Below are positions 24,415 to 32,186 of a stretch of DNA of 64,000 nucleotides, one piece after another. Made by a program: the position numbers and the translations under genes. Positions within the stretch are counted from its first letter, which is position 1, and each line of letters begins with the position of its first letter. This DNA comes from Tilletia caries (Eukaryota; Basidiomycota; Exobasidiomycetes; Tilletiales; Tilletiaceae), in the NCBI GenBank assembly GCA_032718865.1, contig JALUTQ010000030.1, forward strand, positions 248,001 through 312,000. The letters are read 5' to 3'. Under the pieces are notes generated by a model. It had not been told where the DNA came from. It did not search any database and saw only the letters and a program-made list of their open reading frames with translations.

Positions 24415-24600
24415 TAGCCTCAGAAACTCAGGCTGCCTGCGGTGTGTCACGTGTGTGCTTGTCGAGCCGACTTGAAATGGAAGTGACAAGCGGCTGAAGC
24501 CGTGCCGCAGGCAGCCTGAGCGCAAAGACAAGGACTCACCTTGACCGACAGCCAGATCCGCAACTTAAGCAGAATTCACCGAAATGCACTCACCACAGCC
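24415..24600 (+). repeat. Extra copy of the hairpin terminus (left-end type)
   Basis: Starts TAGCCTCA and then carries a perfect 16-bp inverted repeat (24427-24442 with 24505-24520, CCGCAGGCAGCCTGAG) around a 62-nt loop that holds GAAATGGAAGTGA and a nested stem. A CAACTTAAG word follows at about 24561. The first 23 bp are identical to the left end of the element at 25028, and the sequence after the hairpin is diverged but alignable. I take it as a solo or remnant end of a second, related element. Confidence 0.7.
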
Positions 24601-25027
24601 AGCAGCGTCACCATAGGATCCTCAATCATCCATCACGCTCGAGCATCAAACACCTCCTGGTCGTACCCTCGCCTCGCAAGTTACTCGATGACCATCCCTT
24701 TGTGCACGAGCGCGCTCATTGCTGGCAGCCGCACAGGTCTCTGAAGCTGACCTCTTGACTCCACAGCTCACTTATTTGGGCCTGTTGAGTGGGTATATCT
24801 GGTACAGCGCCATTGACTTCTTCTTGTCCAAATCACACAATGAGACAGTAACTTAAACGGTTTGAATCACCGGCGAAATGCCCTAGGATGATGGCTGATG
24901 CTGATTACTGAGTGTTGGTGAAGCTGCCTGCTGCTGGCTGCTGTGGTGAGTGGCGAATTTGGTGAATTTCGCTAAGTTGCTCATCGGGCTGTCGGTCAAG
25001 GTGAGTCCTTACATTTGGCATCAGGCG

Positions 25028-25225
25028 TAGCCTCAGAAACTCAGGCTGCCCAGAGAGCGGGCCAATCCCCGAAGCAATGAAGATCGGCGTTTAGGCTTTC
25101 GGCCGAAATCGAAATGGAAGTGAGAGCAAAAAAATGCCCGCTCAGGGCAGCCTGAGTACAAGTGTAAGGAGAAAGGTCGAAAAGCTCCGAACGGCCAACT
25201 TAGAGAATTTCAGGCACTCACCACC
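25028..25225 (+). repeat. Left hairpin terminus
   Basis: The stem pairs CTCAGGCTGCCC at 25040-25051 with 25145-25156, continued by GAGCGGGC at 25055-25062 with 25136-25143, for about 20 paired bases around a 73-nt loop. The loop carries TTCGGCCGAAATC and GAAATGGAAGTGA. GGCCAACTTAG follows at about 25190. The motif order matches the right end. Confidence 0.75.
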
Positions 25226-25272
25226 GCTTGAACGCGGAGCACCTCAAGACCTCAAATCATTCCTCAGCAAGG

Positions 25273-28200
25273 ATGGCTTCACTCAGCTTCCCATTGCCCG
25301 ACAGCTCTTGGCGCCTTGTCGGCCCTTTCCTCAGCCGACCTCCCAGCTTCAGCCTCAGCCAACCGGAAGCACATCGAGGCGATCCGGCATCCGACGCCGT
25401 CAACAGGACGTCGCCATCGAGCCAGCCTCCAACATCCTCGGTCTGCGCTGACATCATTCGGGATCTTGAAGAGCTACTGGAGGACGAAGAGGAGGAGGAA
25501 GTGGTGGTCCCGAGCTCGGACTCTCTGATGGAAGATGTTGACAGTGAGTGATCCATGTCCCTACTTACTAGAACGACAACTCGGCTGACACCATCTTTCA
25601 TTCACTTTGCAGTCACTCTCCAGCCGTCCCCCGTCAAGGCAATCAAGCGCAAGCGACGCCAGTCGATGTCGGACAGGGACGCACGAGAGTTCCTCCGCTT
25701 CATGTCGCGCAACCAACTCGGCATCGGCGCGGTTCTCGAGCTCTTCTTTCCTGGCCCAGATTCCGATAGCAAGGCCGCCATCCCAGGCGACGATCTGCTC
25801 TCTTCCGGATCCGACTTGACGGACAAGACGTCATACTCCCACACGATGCACTTTCTTCGGAACGGGACCACACGGTGGTTCAACAAGGTTGGAGCGGTCT
25901 CCATTGCGCTCAGGTACAAGGCAGCGCCACAGCCCTTGCTCGACTTGGTGCTGGAAATAGTCAAGAAGGAGTCCAAGAACGCCTCCAGGAACGAGTACTT
26001 GTGCGGCCCACCAGCAGGCAAGACCACCATCTCCGATTTACGCGACTTCGATCCCGAGGAGTCCGCTCAACTCGTCAGGCGAGACATGCCCACGGTCAGC
26101 ACAGTCTTGTCGGCAATCGCGGGAGTGCGGGACGATGAAGCGGAGGAGACTGAGGTCACCCGCGTGGAGGACACCGAGGGGGCGGGGGACGAACCTATGG
26201 TCGAACAAATAGACCCTCCGGGACGCGTCAAGGCTGTCAGGATTCTTCGGCGGTACGGTCATCGGTCAAGGTCCGCAGTCGTAACATCGGCGGTCCACTC
26301 CCTCCTCTTCGCCCGCAACCAGCAGTGCAACAGGTGGCCGTTGCAGCTCGGCGTCGATCTGCTCGGAGCGCGCGTACCTCGTCGCTCCTGTGAGCTGCTC
26401 TCTCGGCTCGGGTTAGTTGCTTCATGGCCGACATCACAGCGCGTGTTCGACAGTATGGCGAAGGACGACCATCGGAGGAGCCTCGAGCTCCTTGCGCTTC
26501 CGTCAACCACCTTCAGCATCTCCTACGACAATGTCAATTGGATGCGAGGAATACGGGACAAGCGCGTGGAGAAGAAGGCCGTCATGATGGCAGCTGTGGC
26601 GGGAATGGCGTACATCCTCAACTATCAAGCCCAGTACGACCCCGATACACCCATCTGCTCCGAGAGACTCTATGAGTCGACATTCGGCTCGGGGCTCTTG
26701 CGGCCGACGACGACAGAGCCGATGGAAATGAGTCCTGTGGACGCTTCCGGGAAGTCCATCGCCATGCAGCGCAACCCTCGAGACCAGCTTCGAACAAAGG
26801 CTGCTCCGGCCGGATTCAACCCGGCTTCTCTTCTCCCTGGCGTGGCGGACGAGGAGCAGATGCTGGAGGTTATCATTTCGCATGCTGTGCGTTCATGGGT
26901 CGACTCGCATCCACGGTCCGGTATTCAGCAGTCCGACATCGCACCGCCCCCTCAAGTCCTCCCTTTCCTTCCGCGTCGCACACAGACGTTAGGCCTACCC
27001 ATACTCAGCCTCGATGAAGGCTCAGTGGCTGGAAACATTGCGGTCATCAAGGCCTACTGCAAGTTCCTCGGCATCGACACGGAAGCGATCTCTGAAGAGC
27101 GGATGCTGATCATCGTCGCAGACGCCTTCACGATTCTTCATCTGCGCTCTGGGCAGGCACGTCGGCTGTATGATCGCTCGAAGACACCGGCGCTCGACAA
27201 GATGCAGGGCATCCAGCTTTGGTCTGCTCTCTTCCATCTGCAGTACACCTTTCAGAAGTACTTCCTTGACGCCCACAGCGGTACCGTCGCCAATCAAAGT
27301 CAAATCAGCGCAAGAGTTCTATGCGACAAAGTCGGCATGAAGAACCTGTGCTCGGGGAACACCGACTTCCACGAGGCAGACGCGTTCATCAAGATCTTGT
27401 TCCCAGCTTTGGTCGACGCGATCCTTACCCCGGCGCTGGGTGAGCAGGTCTCAATGGATGCGGATGGTGGAGGGGATACCAATGCGGACGATCCGGAGCA
27501 ACCATTCGTCGACATTCCCGTCGACACAGTCGTATCCAAGGCACGAGCGCTGCTAAAGAATCTCCTGCACGGCGATGCGGAGTCCGTGGCTCTTCGACAC
27601 GGGGACGAGGACAAGGCCGACTTGTTTTTTCTTCAAGGTCGGAAGATGCTGAGGGACGCAGCTATCTACCTCGAGCTGAAGGACTCGGTCAAGAAGGGTG
27701 ACCCAGGACGCCTTCTTGTGGCGGCCAAATTTACCGTCCCTCGGTTCGCAGCGACCGGGCATCATCGGTACGTCTCCGAGGTTCTGGAAATGCTCCATCA
27801 GGTCCGACACGAGCTTCCTCCAGCGTTGGCGACCACCATAATGTCGGCGTCACTTGTGAATCACTCCGGTCGTTCCGACACCTGGCTTCCTGCGGACCTT
27901 GACATCGAGCATCAAGTGAATGAGCTGAAGAATGTCTTTAAGGTGACAGCATCGTCAGACGCCGTACGAAACGGACACATCGGTCAAATCATCAACATTC
28001 TGCGGGAACAACGACTCCGATGGTACCATGCTGTGGGTATCAGCAGCCGAAACTCCAAGCACTCCGAGCGGTCAACGCACAGAAGCATCCAGCTACTGTC
28101 CCGCCACGTCATCGAGCAAGCCGTTTTCCAGTGGACTTCTGGACGACGGTGCCAAGCCTACGAGCTCAACCGGGGCGACGATGTTCAGCGTCGGAAGAAG

Positions 28201-28509
28201 ATGAACGAACGCAGTCCAAAGCAAGCCAAGGGGCTCGCGACTGACTTCCACGTCTACGGATTCGCTCGGCTGGTTGGTGGGGGAGGACAAGCTGGCATGC
28301 TCTCGGATTGGATGTCGCGCCGAGGACGAGATATGGGAAAGGAGACAGAGGCCACCAGCACAAACGACGCGACCATGGCTGCGCAGCCCGATGAGCTTGA
28401 GGAGGCCGATAACCTCGAGGATCTTCTTGACGACAGTTACTTCCCTGAAGTCGACGTTGACGCTCTCATGGGTGGCTTCGTCATGCTTGAAGATGAAGAG
28501 AACATGTAG
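25273..28509 (+). CDS. DUF6589 family protein, probably transposon-encoded
   Basis: Two exons, 25273-25543 and 25613-28509 (GTGAGT donor, TTGCAG acceptor), give about 1,055 residues. After an acidic, Ser-rich N-terminus the body carries the segments I associate with the fungal DUF6589 family: FSISYDNVNWMRGIRDKR, a stretch of about 200 residues, PILSLDEGSVAGN, MLIIVADAFT, QGIQLWSALFHLQYTFQKYFL, and a C-terminal acidic tail. Asp residues at the ends of predicted strands (SYDNVNW, VADAF) recall an RNase-H-like nuclease, but that is inference. The molecular function of the family is not established. The ATG at 25273 is the first in frame, 45 bp downstream of the left terminus, so the promoter would lie in the terminal repeat. 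Codon use is like the host's, with a single intron. Confidence 0.75.
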
Positions 28510-28532
28510 GACGAGGACTGAAGGGGGAAGGA

Positions 28533-29440
28533 GAGTGGAGACACATCGCACACACGCTCCCTGACTCGCTCCTCATCGACACCGACGAGCCCACGCTGGG
28601 CGAACGCATCAGGACCACCACAGCCAAGCCAAGGCGCATCCAAAACGGACACCACCACCACCACGATCACGATCACGAGGATGACCTCCCCAACGGAGTC
28701 ACCAAGACGAATGCACAACCCAACCAAGCCGAGCACGCAGACGGAGACGAGATCACGCCCTTCCCGCTACCCGCAGCCGTATCCGGGAACCCACCAGCCT
28801 CCTCCCCCGCCCTCTCCCACGCACTCACACAAGCCCTCCACTCGGCCGACAAAGCACTGCTCTCCTCCATCCTAGCACACTACGACCCGCTCCTCATCCG
28901 CTCCACCGTACAACGTCTCACCGGCGCCCAGGCACTCTCCCTCCTCGAGCAGCTCGTCGCCAGACTCGTGGGGCCTCGAAAGATGGGCAGGAGGAGGTGC
29001 GGCGGCGAACGACGCGCTCGCCAGGGGAAGCTCGACGGGTAAAGTACGGACTACCATCGAGTGGATCCGATCTGTGCTCCTCCTGCACACCTCGTATCTC
29101 ATGGCCCTCCCGCACCTCACCACCCGACTCGCATCGCTCCATATGGCACTCTCGTCCCGCCTGGCCTCCCATACCAAGTTGCTCGGCCTCCAGGGCAGGC
29201 TCGAGTTGGTCTTGAGTCAGATCGAGATCAGGGCTGCCTATGCTGCTGTGGCGGGCAGGGGGGCACAGGGGGTAAAGTCGCGCTTGGCTAATGCGGGCGC
29301 GGGGGCTCCGGCTTCGGGATCGAAGAAGAAGGGTGCGAAGGGTCGCGGTCGCGGTCCTGCTGATGATCCGACGCGATGGATCAAGCCGAGCGATGATGCA
29401 GATGACGATCACATGAAGCAGCAGACACAGAACACAGAGG
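28533..29440 (+). pseudogene. UTP5: Truncated UTP5/WDR43-like gene: C-terminal Utp12 domain only
   Basis: UTP5/WDR43 is a t-UTP subunit of the nucleolar small-subunit processome. Here only its C-terminal part is present. Frame one gives DTDEPTLGERI, a His/Asp linker, then the Utp12 helices (SHALTQALHSADKALLSSIL, STVQRLTGAQALSLLEQLV). A one-base shift near 28990 moves to a second frame with TTIEWIRSVLLLHTSYLMAL, HTKLLGLQGRLELVLSQIEI and a basic Gly/Lys tail. The WD40 repeats that should precede this are absent, no ATG heads the frame, and the DUF6589 stop codon is only about 25 bp upstream. I read it as a captured or residual fragment inside the mobile element. The Utp12 assignment is from family memory. 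Confidence 0.65.
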
Positions 29441-29683
29441 CACAGAACACAATACACATGAACCATTACACAATGATTTACTGCTCAACATACTCATCGG
29501 CCCATCCAGTGAGTAGAGTATATTCACGTGTCTTGTGTGCAACCGCGTAGAGTCCAGCTAAGCTAACACTATTTCCTCTCCTTCAACAGTCTGGTCGGGC
29601 ATCGGAGCCATTTAGCTGAAGCAAACACAATGATGGTGTGTGTGAGCAGTGAGTGTGACTCCGATTATGCAAAGTTCTGAATG

Positions 29684-31900
29684 CTAACCTGTGTGTCCCA
29701 ATGGAATCAGTGGTACTGCTTGTGGGTTCGCTGCGTTCCAATCCCTGCAGGCTTTGCAGGAGTATGTCCTCGGTCGAGACTGTGAAAGTGAGACAATCAG
29801 GTAAGAAATGAACATGCAGCCGACCGGATGTCCATGTTCACTCGCTTTACTTACCGCGCTCCCACTCCCCGTTCCGCTACCTTCAGCCGTACCACTTCCG
29901 CTCGCTACTGCACTGCCTCCAGCCGTACCATTTCCGCTTGCCGCTGCCTGTGAAGCCCTCTGTGCTTTCTTCGCAGCACGCTCCTCGGCCCGACTTCTAG
30001 CGCGTTCATCGGCACGACGATCAGCTTCTGCCTTCTGCTGTTCGCGCTCCTTTTCGCGCTCCGCATCGTACGTTCCAATGTTCTCCTTCAGCCATGCCGT
30101 CAACTCAGGCTGCACAACTGACTTCGCTTCCATTTGCACGTAGTCCCCAACAGCATCGTCCTGTCCAGCTCCGAGGGCCTTGTCGATTTTGCCGAGGTTC
30201 TTCACGACTGAAGCCACATCCTCGGATCGGAAGAAGTAGGCAATACCGAGCCACGAAGGTACGCCTTCCACCTTCGACCAATGTTCCTTCCATCGTGTTT
30301 GTCGCCACTGACGGAGCTTGGGCTCGATAAACTCCTGCAGTTTTGTGATCCCGGTCCGAGCTCGACCTTCTTCGACCTTCTCCGGCAGCAGAGCGTCAGG
30401 AACCTTCGGCAGCTCCTTCGGATTGCAGACGCAGCAGCACGGTCCATCTTTTGCGATGTTGGGACCGAAGATGTATTCTGCCGACGGCACATTTTCGGGC
30501 GAAGGCTGGCCCAAGAAGTCATTGATCATGGTACGTATGCACCCTTTCCGCAGGAGCGCATGATGAGCGACCTTGACGATTTGTTCGTCTGCCGTTGTAT
30601 TCAGCCTCGTCGAGACTGCCTCCGGCTCTGCGGCTCCCGCTGGTACCTCCTCGTCAACTTCACCCACCTCGGCCGCGAGCAAAGCATCAGCTTGGGCTTG
30701 AGGTGCGGCCATCGCCGCAGGAACGGCCCAAGGATCGGCAAGAATGACACCCAGGGCATGGCTTCGCGGATTCCGACCAGCGCGACCGAGGCGCTGCATA
30801 ATTGCTGCAAGTGAGTCCAAGATCCGCCACTGAATGACCCTCAGGATTCTTTGCAGGTCTGCTCCCATACCAAGTGCGCTTGTGCTGATCACACACAAGA
30901 TCCTTCCCGATTCCAGAAGATCCTTTACCTGAGCGCGATGAGAATCGCTCATGTCTGCCGACACCAGGAGAACGACGTCCTCCAGTCCGAGCCGTGAGTA
31001 CCAAGCCTGGACTTTACGGAACATCTCCAGCTGTTGCGTTTTGTTATTGTTGTAGATGATCGTCGGCTTGCACCTCTCCTTCAGTGCCCGCATCTCCGCG
31101 TCGTTCGCCGGCTTCGTTCCATGCAGCTCGGGCAGCCACGCCAGGATGTCGCGAAAGGAAGCAAGCGGGTATCGGATCGGCGCGACGACATACTCGATGT
31201 TTGGCCGATCGACACCGATATCAAGGACAAAAGGGTCGTTGAGCTCAAAGTGGCGGAGGACCTCCTTCCGATAGTTGGCAGGAAGGGTCCCGCTCATCGC
31301 GAGCCCGGGGATGTCGGCCTGTGGAGGAATCAGAAGGGCATGAAGATCAGCATACATTGACTCGGTGAGTACGTCTGCGCTCAGTACGCTCTTACCAGAT
31401 GTCTGAGGATGCTGACGTCTTTGATCCCCTTCCGGAACGTGGAGTCGACAGCCCAGTCCTTCAGGACCTGGCACTCATCGAACACAATACCGCCCAGGGA
31501 TGCCTTGAAGTTCGAATCCAGCAGGACCTCTTTAAATGCGTTTCCGATGGCCATCTCAGGCGAGACGAATACCAGGCGGAACTTGCCGGCCTTGATCTCC
31601 TCGAATAGCTTGGGCGTTCGATTTTCCGCATGTATGTAGACTGCCTCCTTGCCCATCCGGGCCGCAAGTTCTTCTAGCAGACTCTGAAGCGGTTCCATGA
31701 CAACGAATGTCTTATCAGGAAGCATGTGGAGGAGTAAGTTGAGGATATAGCCCTTGCCAGAGCCAGTCGGCGCGATAACAAGTCCATCCTGACCTCTTGC
31801 CAGGCCTGCCACCGCATCCTTTTGGCCATTGTTTGGGGTAAGGGAGTCCTGGCTCAGCTGCAGCCCAATCCAGCTCAACGTTGCTGTAACGAGATAGGCG
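29684..31900 (-). CDS. RecQ-like superfamily 2 DNA helicase of the mobile element
   Basis: ATP-dependent DNA helicase. Motif 0/I: FTPN-like SLTPNNGQKDAV and IAPTGSGKGY. Motif II: VFDECQVLKDW (DECQ in place of RecQ DEAH/DECH). Motif III: AMSGTLPANYRKEVL. Motif V: STSALGMGADL. Motif VI: QRLGRAGRNPRS. A C-terminal region holds a cysteine pair (CCCVCNPKELP) and a charged Glu/Arg/Lys coiled coil, then Gly/Ser repeats. Introns are likely after ILRHL (about 31395) and near the 3' end. The N-terminus is unclear: the reading frame with the Q-like motif and the frame starting MSASTQDTQ differ, so either a short intron or a frameshift lies near 31850. It reads inward from the right hairpin end. Similar RecQ-like genes are known as telomere-linked helicases and on fungal transposons. 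Confidence 0.8.
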
Positions 31901-32019
31901 AGGGCGTTTCCGTGCTGGCGCCGCAGCTTGCGTGTCTTGTGTTGATGCGCTCATGCTGTCTGAGTCTGGTGAGATTGGCGCGGGCAGGGACGGTGTTGAT
32001 GTATGCAGTATGAGATTTC

Positions 32020-32186
32020 GGGTCAAATCCACTAAGTTGGTCCGTGGATGGATTTCAGCCATTTTGAATGAGTTTGTGATCAGGCGTGCTGTCGCACCAA
32101 AATCGGAAGCTTCACTTCCATTTCGTTCTCGGATCTCGGCCGAGAAATTCTCCACACTGCACAGCACGCCTGATACTATGAGGCTA
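32020..32186 (-). repeat. Right hairpin terminus
   Basis: The perfect 14-bp stem ATCAGGCGTGCTGT at 32079-32092 pairs with 32161-32174. Read on the minus strand from 32186 it gives TAGCCTCA, TCAGGC, TCTCGGCCGAGATC, GAAATGGAAGTGA, GCCTGA, ACAA and then CCAACTTAG, the same order as the left end. Stem bases differ from the left end while pairing is kept, which suggests the fold matters rather than the exact sequence. Confidence 0.75.

Follow-up and report, generated by a model that had tools for sequence, protein, structure and literature searches.

What kind of element occupies positions 25,028 to 32,186 of the stretch of Tilletia caries DNA analysed here (64,000 nucleotides of contig JALUTQ010000030.1, hereafter the window)? 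A first-pass annotation had proposed an undescribed transposon, with a DUF6589 gene and a RecQ-like helicase gene lying between inverted hairpin ends. The element is a real transposon. The reading that I favour, with a probability of roughly 0.85, is that the element moves by cut and paste as a DDE DNA transposon and most likely represents a Tilletia family within the AcademH lineage; on this reading the DUF6589 protein is the transposase and the RecQ-like helicase its regular partner. Support for a new type of transposon is lacking, and the element is best read as a Tilletia member of AcademH.

The inverted ends with their ordered signature, and the two genes reading inward from them, lie where that annotation had placed them. 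The element is bounded by TAGCCTCA...TGAGGCTA, with the DUF6589 gene next to the left end and the helicase gene next to the right one. As to the individual parts of the signature, their order at the ends holds, while GAAATGGAAGTGA is confined, among the loci scanned, to the ends of the window family and its near relatives.

Table 1. Coordinates of the element, its parts and its neighbour in the window.
Feature	Positions	Strand	Details
DUF6589-RecQ DNA transposon	25028..32186	.	7159 bp; termini TAG...CTA; this copy without target-site duplication
Left end	25028..25155	+	TAGCCTCA, then subterminal hairpin; 5' arm from 25041 (TCAGGCTGCCC..), 3' arm to 25155 (..GGCAGCCTGA)
DUF6589 gene	25273..28509	+	Exons 25273-25543 and 25613-28509; 1055 amino acids in the two-exon model; PF20231, E 1.3e-56
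Captured host Utp12-family gene fragment	28546..29408	+	Between the two transposon genes; 94.6% identity, with 23 gap positions, to part of C7:230325-231192
RecQ-like SF2 helicase gene	29684..31878	-	Frames 31381-31878 (DEAD, PF00270, E 2.2e-10) and 29684-31474 (Helicase_C, PF00271, E 7.3e-12)
Right end, inverted	32080..32186	-	TAGCCTCA, then hairpin TCAGGCGTGCTGT ... ACAGCACGCCTGA; stem letters unlike those of the left end
Short non-autonomous relative	24415..25027	+	613 bases; 96% identity to C35:1338275-1338883 over 1-613

The whole genome was scanned (38.1 Mb in 40 contigs, here C1 to C40). The left end has six matches and the right end five, the window included, and copies with both ends and with linked DUF6589 and RecQ matches are present, as the annotation had anticipated for a transposon. 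The same element is found at C1:519211-537343, in three pieces with 97-100% identity to the window, and with the target-site duplication CTTGTTTTC on both outer flanks. Its pieces are separated by two nested inserts, namely a long terminal repeat element with 277-bp repeats, and a 5.2-kb insert whose match to the KDZ (Kyakuja-Dileera-Zisupton) domain is marginal (26.7 bits, against a Pfam cut-off of 26.6). Another copy (L019, C30:1332800-1336056) lies at a contig end and is decayed, the RecQ part having several stops and the DUF6589 part a single one; it is possibly subtelomeric.

Target duplications, another expectation of the annotation, were sought in 40 pairs of ends (30 made up of neighbouring pattern matches, 10 taken from fetched loci), with solitary matches left out. 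An exact 9-bp duplication stands directly outside TAG/CTA in 27 of the 40, and its sequence varies among copies; one pair has 10 bp and one 13 bp. When left and right flanks were deliberately mismatched, none of 1,560 combinations agreed within one mismatch. The remaining 11 pairs, the window copy among them, have no exact duplication, two of these being one base off in nine. For the window copy none was found even with the termini shifted by up to three bases, or with the short element to its left taken as the left border. The copy with 13 bp (C5:160385-169352) has additional bases near both termini.

An empty site, in the form of a related one, was found for the insertion at C40:1919166-1926805. 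This copy carries both genes and is nested in a copy of a 1.2-kb non-autonomous element, with CTGACAGCT on either side, while in the C36 copy of the 1.2-kb element CTGACAGCT occurs just once at that point. Once joined, the C40 flanks align to C36 in one stretch (94.3%, 29 gap positions), the right flank alone giving the same number of gap positions. The borders are therefore TAG/CTA, and the duplication is 9 bp. The gene layout recurs in a distant sister clade, whose ends are TAGTCTGGTCACACCAGACC. Two of its copies, C27:1141692-1148722 and C4:400304-407329, are 99.2% identical, with a 10-bp duplication by eye at C27 and none at C4, and by the look of these near-identical copies the clade was recently active.

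The two genes travel together. For the linkage count, 54 DUF6589 rows were merged into 34 loci and 57 RecQ rows into 47. A RecQ match lies within 8 kb of 31 of the 34 DUF6589 loci, convergently in 30, against a chance expectation of about 0.67; for one of the 31 (C13:497426), the RecQ match is 7.5 kb away and already paired elsewhere. The helicase had been proposed as the partner of DUF6589, and this linkage bears it out. The other 17 of the 47 RecQ loci have no DUF6589 link. Some of them are probably host RecQ genes, and one (C3:1359730) sits in a RecQ-only derivative that has the ends together with a 9-bp duplication. Of the 24 solved sequences listed for frame 29684-31474, the majority are RecQ, WRN or BLM helicases. 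A 5' exon of the RecQ gene was searched for at the window gene without success, and the bounds in Table 1 are those of the open frames.

DUF6589 is a Pfam family without assigned function, and is large in mushroom-type fungi. The window gene probably starts at 25273 and has one intron, according to the gene model, and a Pfam scan of its protein (E up to 0.1) returned PF20231 alone. Its identity to a Tilletia controversa protein of 573 residues is 97%, with 77% coverage of the query region, and its identity to proteins of T. indica and T. maclaganii is 52-54%, which makes the source a Tilletia close to T. controversa. Three large protein searches, in each of which the best-matching ~8,000 candidates were scored, gave 7, 7 and 8 homologues, from the basidiomycete Tilletia wherever an organism was named. 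A triad D325/D523/E785 is conserved (numbering of the 984-residue open reading frame 25555-28509). The annotation had called the protein recombinase-like and suggested looking for an RNase H fold in its core; the structure prediction came out positive, with DDE transposases ranking first in two models at modest Z, and with the hAT transposase Hermes as the best-scoring solved fold (VIA-align on Foldseek candidates). Foldseek against the PDB gave no significant match (214 rows with E <= 10, none with E <= 0.001; Hermes 2bw3 at rank 8, E 0.73), and a profile search of solved sequences with DUF6589 gave nothing relevant (two rows, E 0.041 and 8.6). Its predicted fold and the conserved triad make DUF6589 a candidate transposase of the DDE/RNase H type.

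I then consider the ends. The pattern TAGYCTCAN{2,8}TCAGRC has 99 matches in the genome, against 6 for a reversed-pattern control, and the end signature is therefore not due to chance. Both window hairpins run TCAGGC ... GCCTGA and start at position 14. The stems had been said to differ in sequence yet pair within each end, and they do, at 94% over 17 nucleotides on the left and 100% over 14 on the right. A motif-free ungapped search, with 18 positions allowed, placed the 5' arm of the best stem at position 11-14 in 18 of 21 ends. By the same ungapped search, 7 of the 21 stems, including both from the window, beat the best of 100 shuffles and 14 failed to, a shortfall that perhaps reflects bulges in many stems. 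With arms chosen by motif, both were found in 23 of 27 ends (the 3' arm was not found in four), and the 5' arm lies at position 12-14 in all 23; two of these ends belong to a 222-bp element, where the partner arm is that of the opposite terminus. Stem positions 7-13, beyond the fixed TCAGRC, are paired at 5.13 of 7, compared to 3.31 of 7 in 486 swaps of arms from one end to another, a difference to which the choice of each 3' arm as the best among its motif matches contributes somewhat by favouring true pairs. The pairing is suggestive, and points to structure short of proof. A near-identical six-letter motif reads forward at the terminus (GYCTCA), reversed in the 5' arm (TCAGRC) and forward again in the 3' arm (GYCTGA), and these repeats may therefore be transposase binding sites as well.

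Other transposons have landed in hairpin arms of the window family in three cases, the window copy counted. The insert with the marginal KDZ match, at C1:519338-524503 (L012 4338-9503), lies in such an arm with an 8-bp duplication, GCAGCCTG; an insert with sister-clade-like ends, at C28:389713-390213 (L017), lies in another, with a 10-bp duplication, GCCCTGAGCG. At C3:1358617-1358865 (L121), three end-pattern matches spaced 115 bp apart, apparently tandem copies of the terminal hairpin unit, stand at one terminus of a RecQ-only element whose duplication is 9 bp long.

To which known elements does this one belong? AcademH elements have terminal inverted repeats and a helicase of RecQ-like type. 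The group was reportedly described by Kojima in 2020 (Mob DNA 11:15). Passages in citing papers give it 9- or 10-bp duplications and an encoded helicase (PMC10045372), name Basidiomycota, Ascomycota and Mucoromycota as its hosts and cite it jointly with KolobokH as a source of DEAD and Helicase_C domains (PMC10799480), and count Academ among the DDD/E superfamilies (PMC9587614). Both duplication lengths recur here, 9 bp in the 27 pairs and 10 bp in the sister-clade copies at C27 and within C28; the window helicase has the same two domains, the predicted fold and conserved D, D, E of DUF6589 fit a DDD/E transposase, and its homologues with a named organism come from a basidiomycete. Among the features compared with these passages there is no difference. 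By its features AcademH membership is strong and most likely, with Academ compared by description only. The term "undescribed" is accordingly not supported, since those passages already report helicase-encoding elements of fungi that make 9-10 bp duplications.

An alternative is that the DUF6589 elements form a separate, undescribed superfamily, merely resembling AcademH in duplication length and helicase. It can appeal to a comparison with Academ made by description, to hairpin ends whose covariation is not described in the literature passages found, and to the silence of the literature searched, where DUF6589 is not named, no statement ties it to Academ, PF20231 appears only in an optics paper, and IPR046496 appears nowhere. 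However, the duplications of 9 or 10 bp, the helicase and the fungal hosts all agree with AcademH as those passages present it, and both lengths occur in this one genome, which makes a separate superfamily improbable.

KolobokH is likewise a fungal DDD/E transposon with a RecQ helicase; however, Kolobok duplicates TTAA, whereas the duplications here are 9-10 bp long and varied. Kolobok also shares a C/DxxH motif between the second D and the E, according to a passage in PMC9587614, and no C/DxxH column above 50% is seen here in alignments A2 or A3. With neither the motif nor the TTAA duplication present, I regard KolobokH as very improbable. The hAT superfamily enters through the predicted fold, as Hermes combines an RNase H core with a helical insertion. 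hAT elements duplicate 8 bp, in contrast to the 9-10 bp found here, and have the C/DxxH motif, of which no column above 50% is present here, and in these elements a helicase is the partner; membership was rejected, the resemblance being one of fold alone. KDZ, also a fungal transposase family and marginally matched in the insert of the C1 copy, was set aside, as the window DUF6589 protein has no PF18758 match in the Pfam scan.

A Helitron-like or other single-strand element using hairpins, with DUF6589 as cargo and the helicase driving movement, would account for the hairpin ends and the helicase gene, but Helitrons make no target duplication, and the fixed-length duplications, the inverted ends, the conserved DDE triad and the absence of a Helitron_like_N or PIF1 domain from the four DUF6589 and helicase frames scanned against Pfam leave it hardly credible. 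A chance arrangement, with DUF6589 and RecQ as host genes enclosed by unrelated inverted repeats, for which one might cite the RecQ-related genes near telomeres of the smut Ustilago maydis (in passages of PMC7593156), is scarcely tenable against linkage at 31 of 34 loci, shared ends with duplications around both genes at several sites, and the related empty site.

For the AcademH-lineage transposon, the following mechanism can be proposed. The DUF6589 transposase would recognise the terminus, TAGYCTCA, together with the GYCTGA/TCAGRC motifs repeated in the subterminal hairpin, would cut at TAG/CTA, and would join the element ends to target strands whose cuts lie 9 bp apart (10 bp for the sister clade). 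The RecQ-like helicase may open the element's own hairpins when the ends are assembled, or in repair or copying after excision. If repair synthesis after excision aborted at the hairpins, minimal elements would arise, and a hairpin-melting helicase would prevent this. Three minimal elements were found, a small number, and found because they are short: one of 211 bp at C28 without its nested insert (L017), one of 222 bp at C3:643983-644204 (L120), and a third at C5 with ~720 bp of further sequence (L015/L016). The junctions between their termini lie at positions 90-100 in one end and 119-122 in the other, and all six breakpoints fall between 2 bases before and 8 bases into the hairpin 3' arms, the outcome expected if repair synthesis aborts at hairpins. 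A bolder version, in which the hairpins are selected functional structures melted by RecQ, donor-site repair aborts at the 3' arms and yields 211-222 bp elements unless the element's own helicase helps, and the elements form a hairpin-gated DDE class perhaps distinct from Academ, is in my view doubtful.

Two neighbouring features complete the locus. The Utp12-family fragment derives its name from the host open frame at C7:230325-231192, which matches PF04003 (E 4.4e-15). It is common to the C25, C1 and C30 copies, and would have been captured before those copies spread. The short relative has an intact 715-bp counterpart at C35:1338169-1338883, with an exact 9-bp duplication, ACTCTATAC. The main element is inserted in the right hairpin arm of the short relative (..CATCAGGCG, then TAG). 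The remainder of the short relative is absent from the right flank of the main element, and neither CATCAGGCG nor CCACTCATT occurs to its right within the window; a later deletion or recombination is supposed.

The assignment of DUF6589 as the DDE transposase of helicase-carrying elements would turn the genes of this family into mobile-element genes. A single genome supplies autonomous copies, several non-autonomous families, minimal derivatives, two duplication lengths and a captured host-gene fragment, and the question of why some DNA transposons carry a RecQ-like helicase is now testable.
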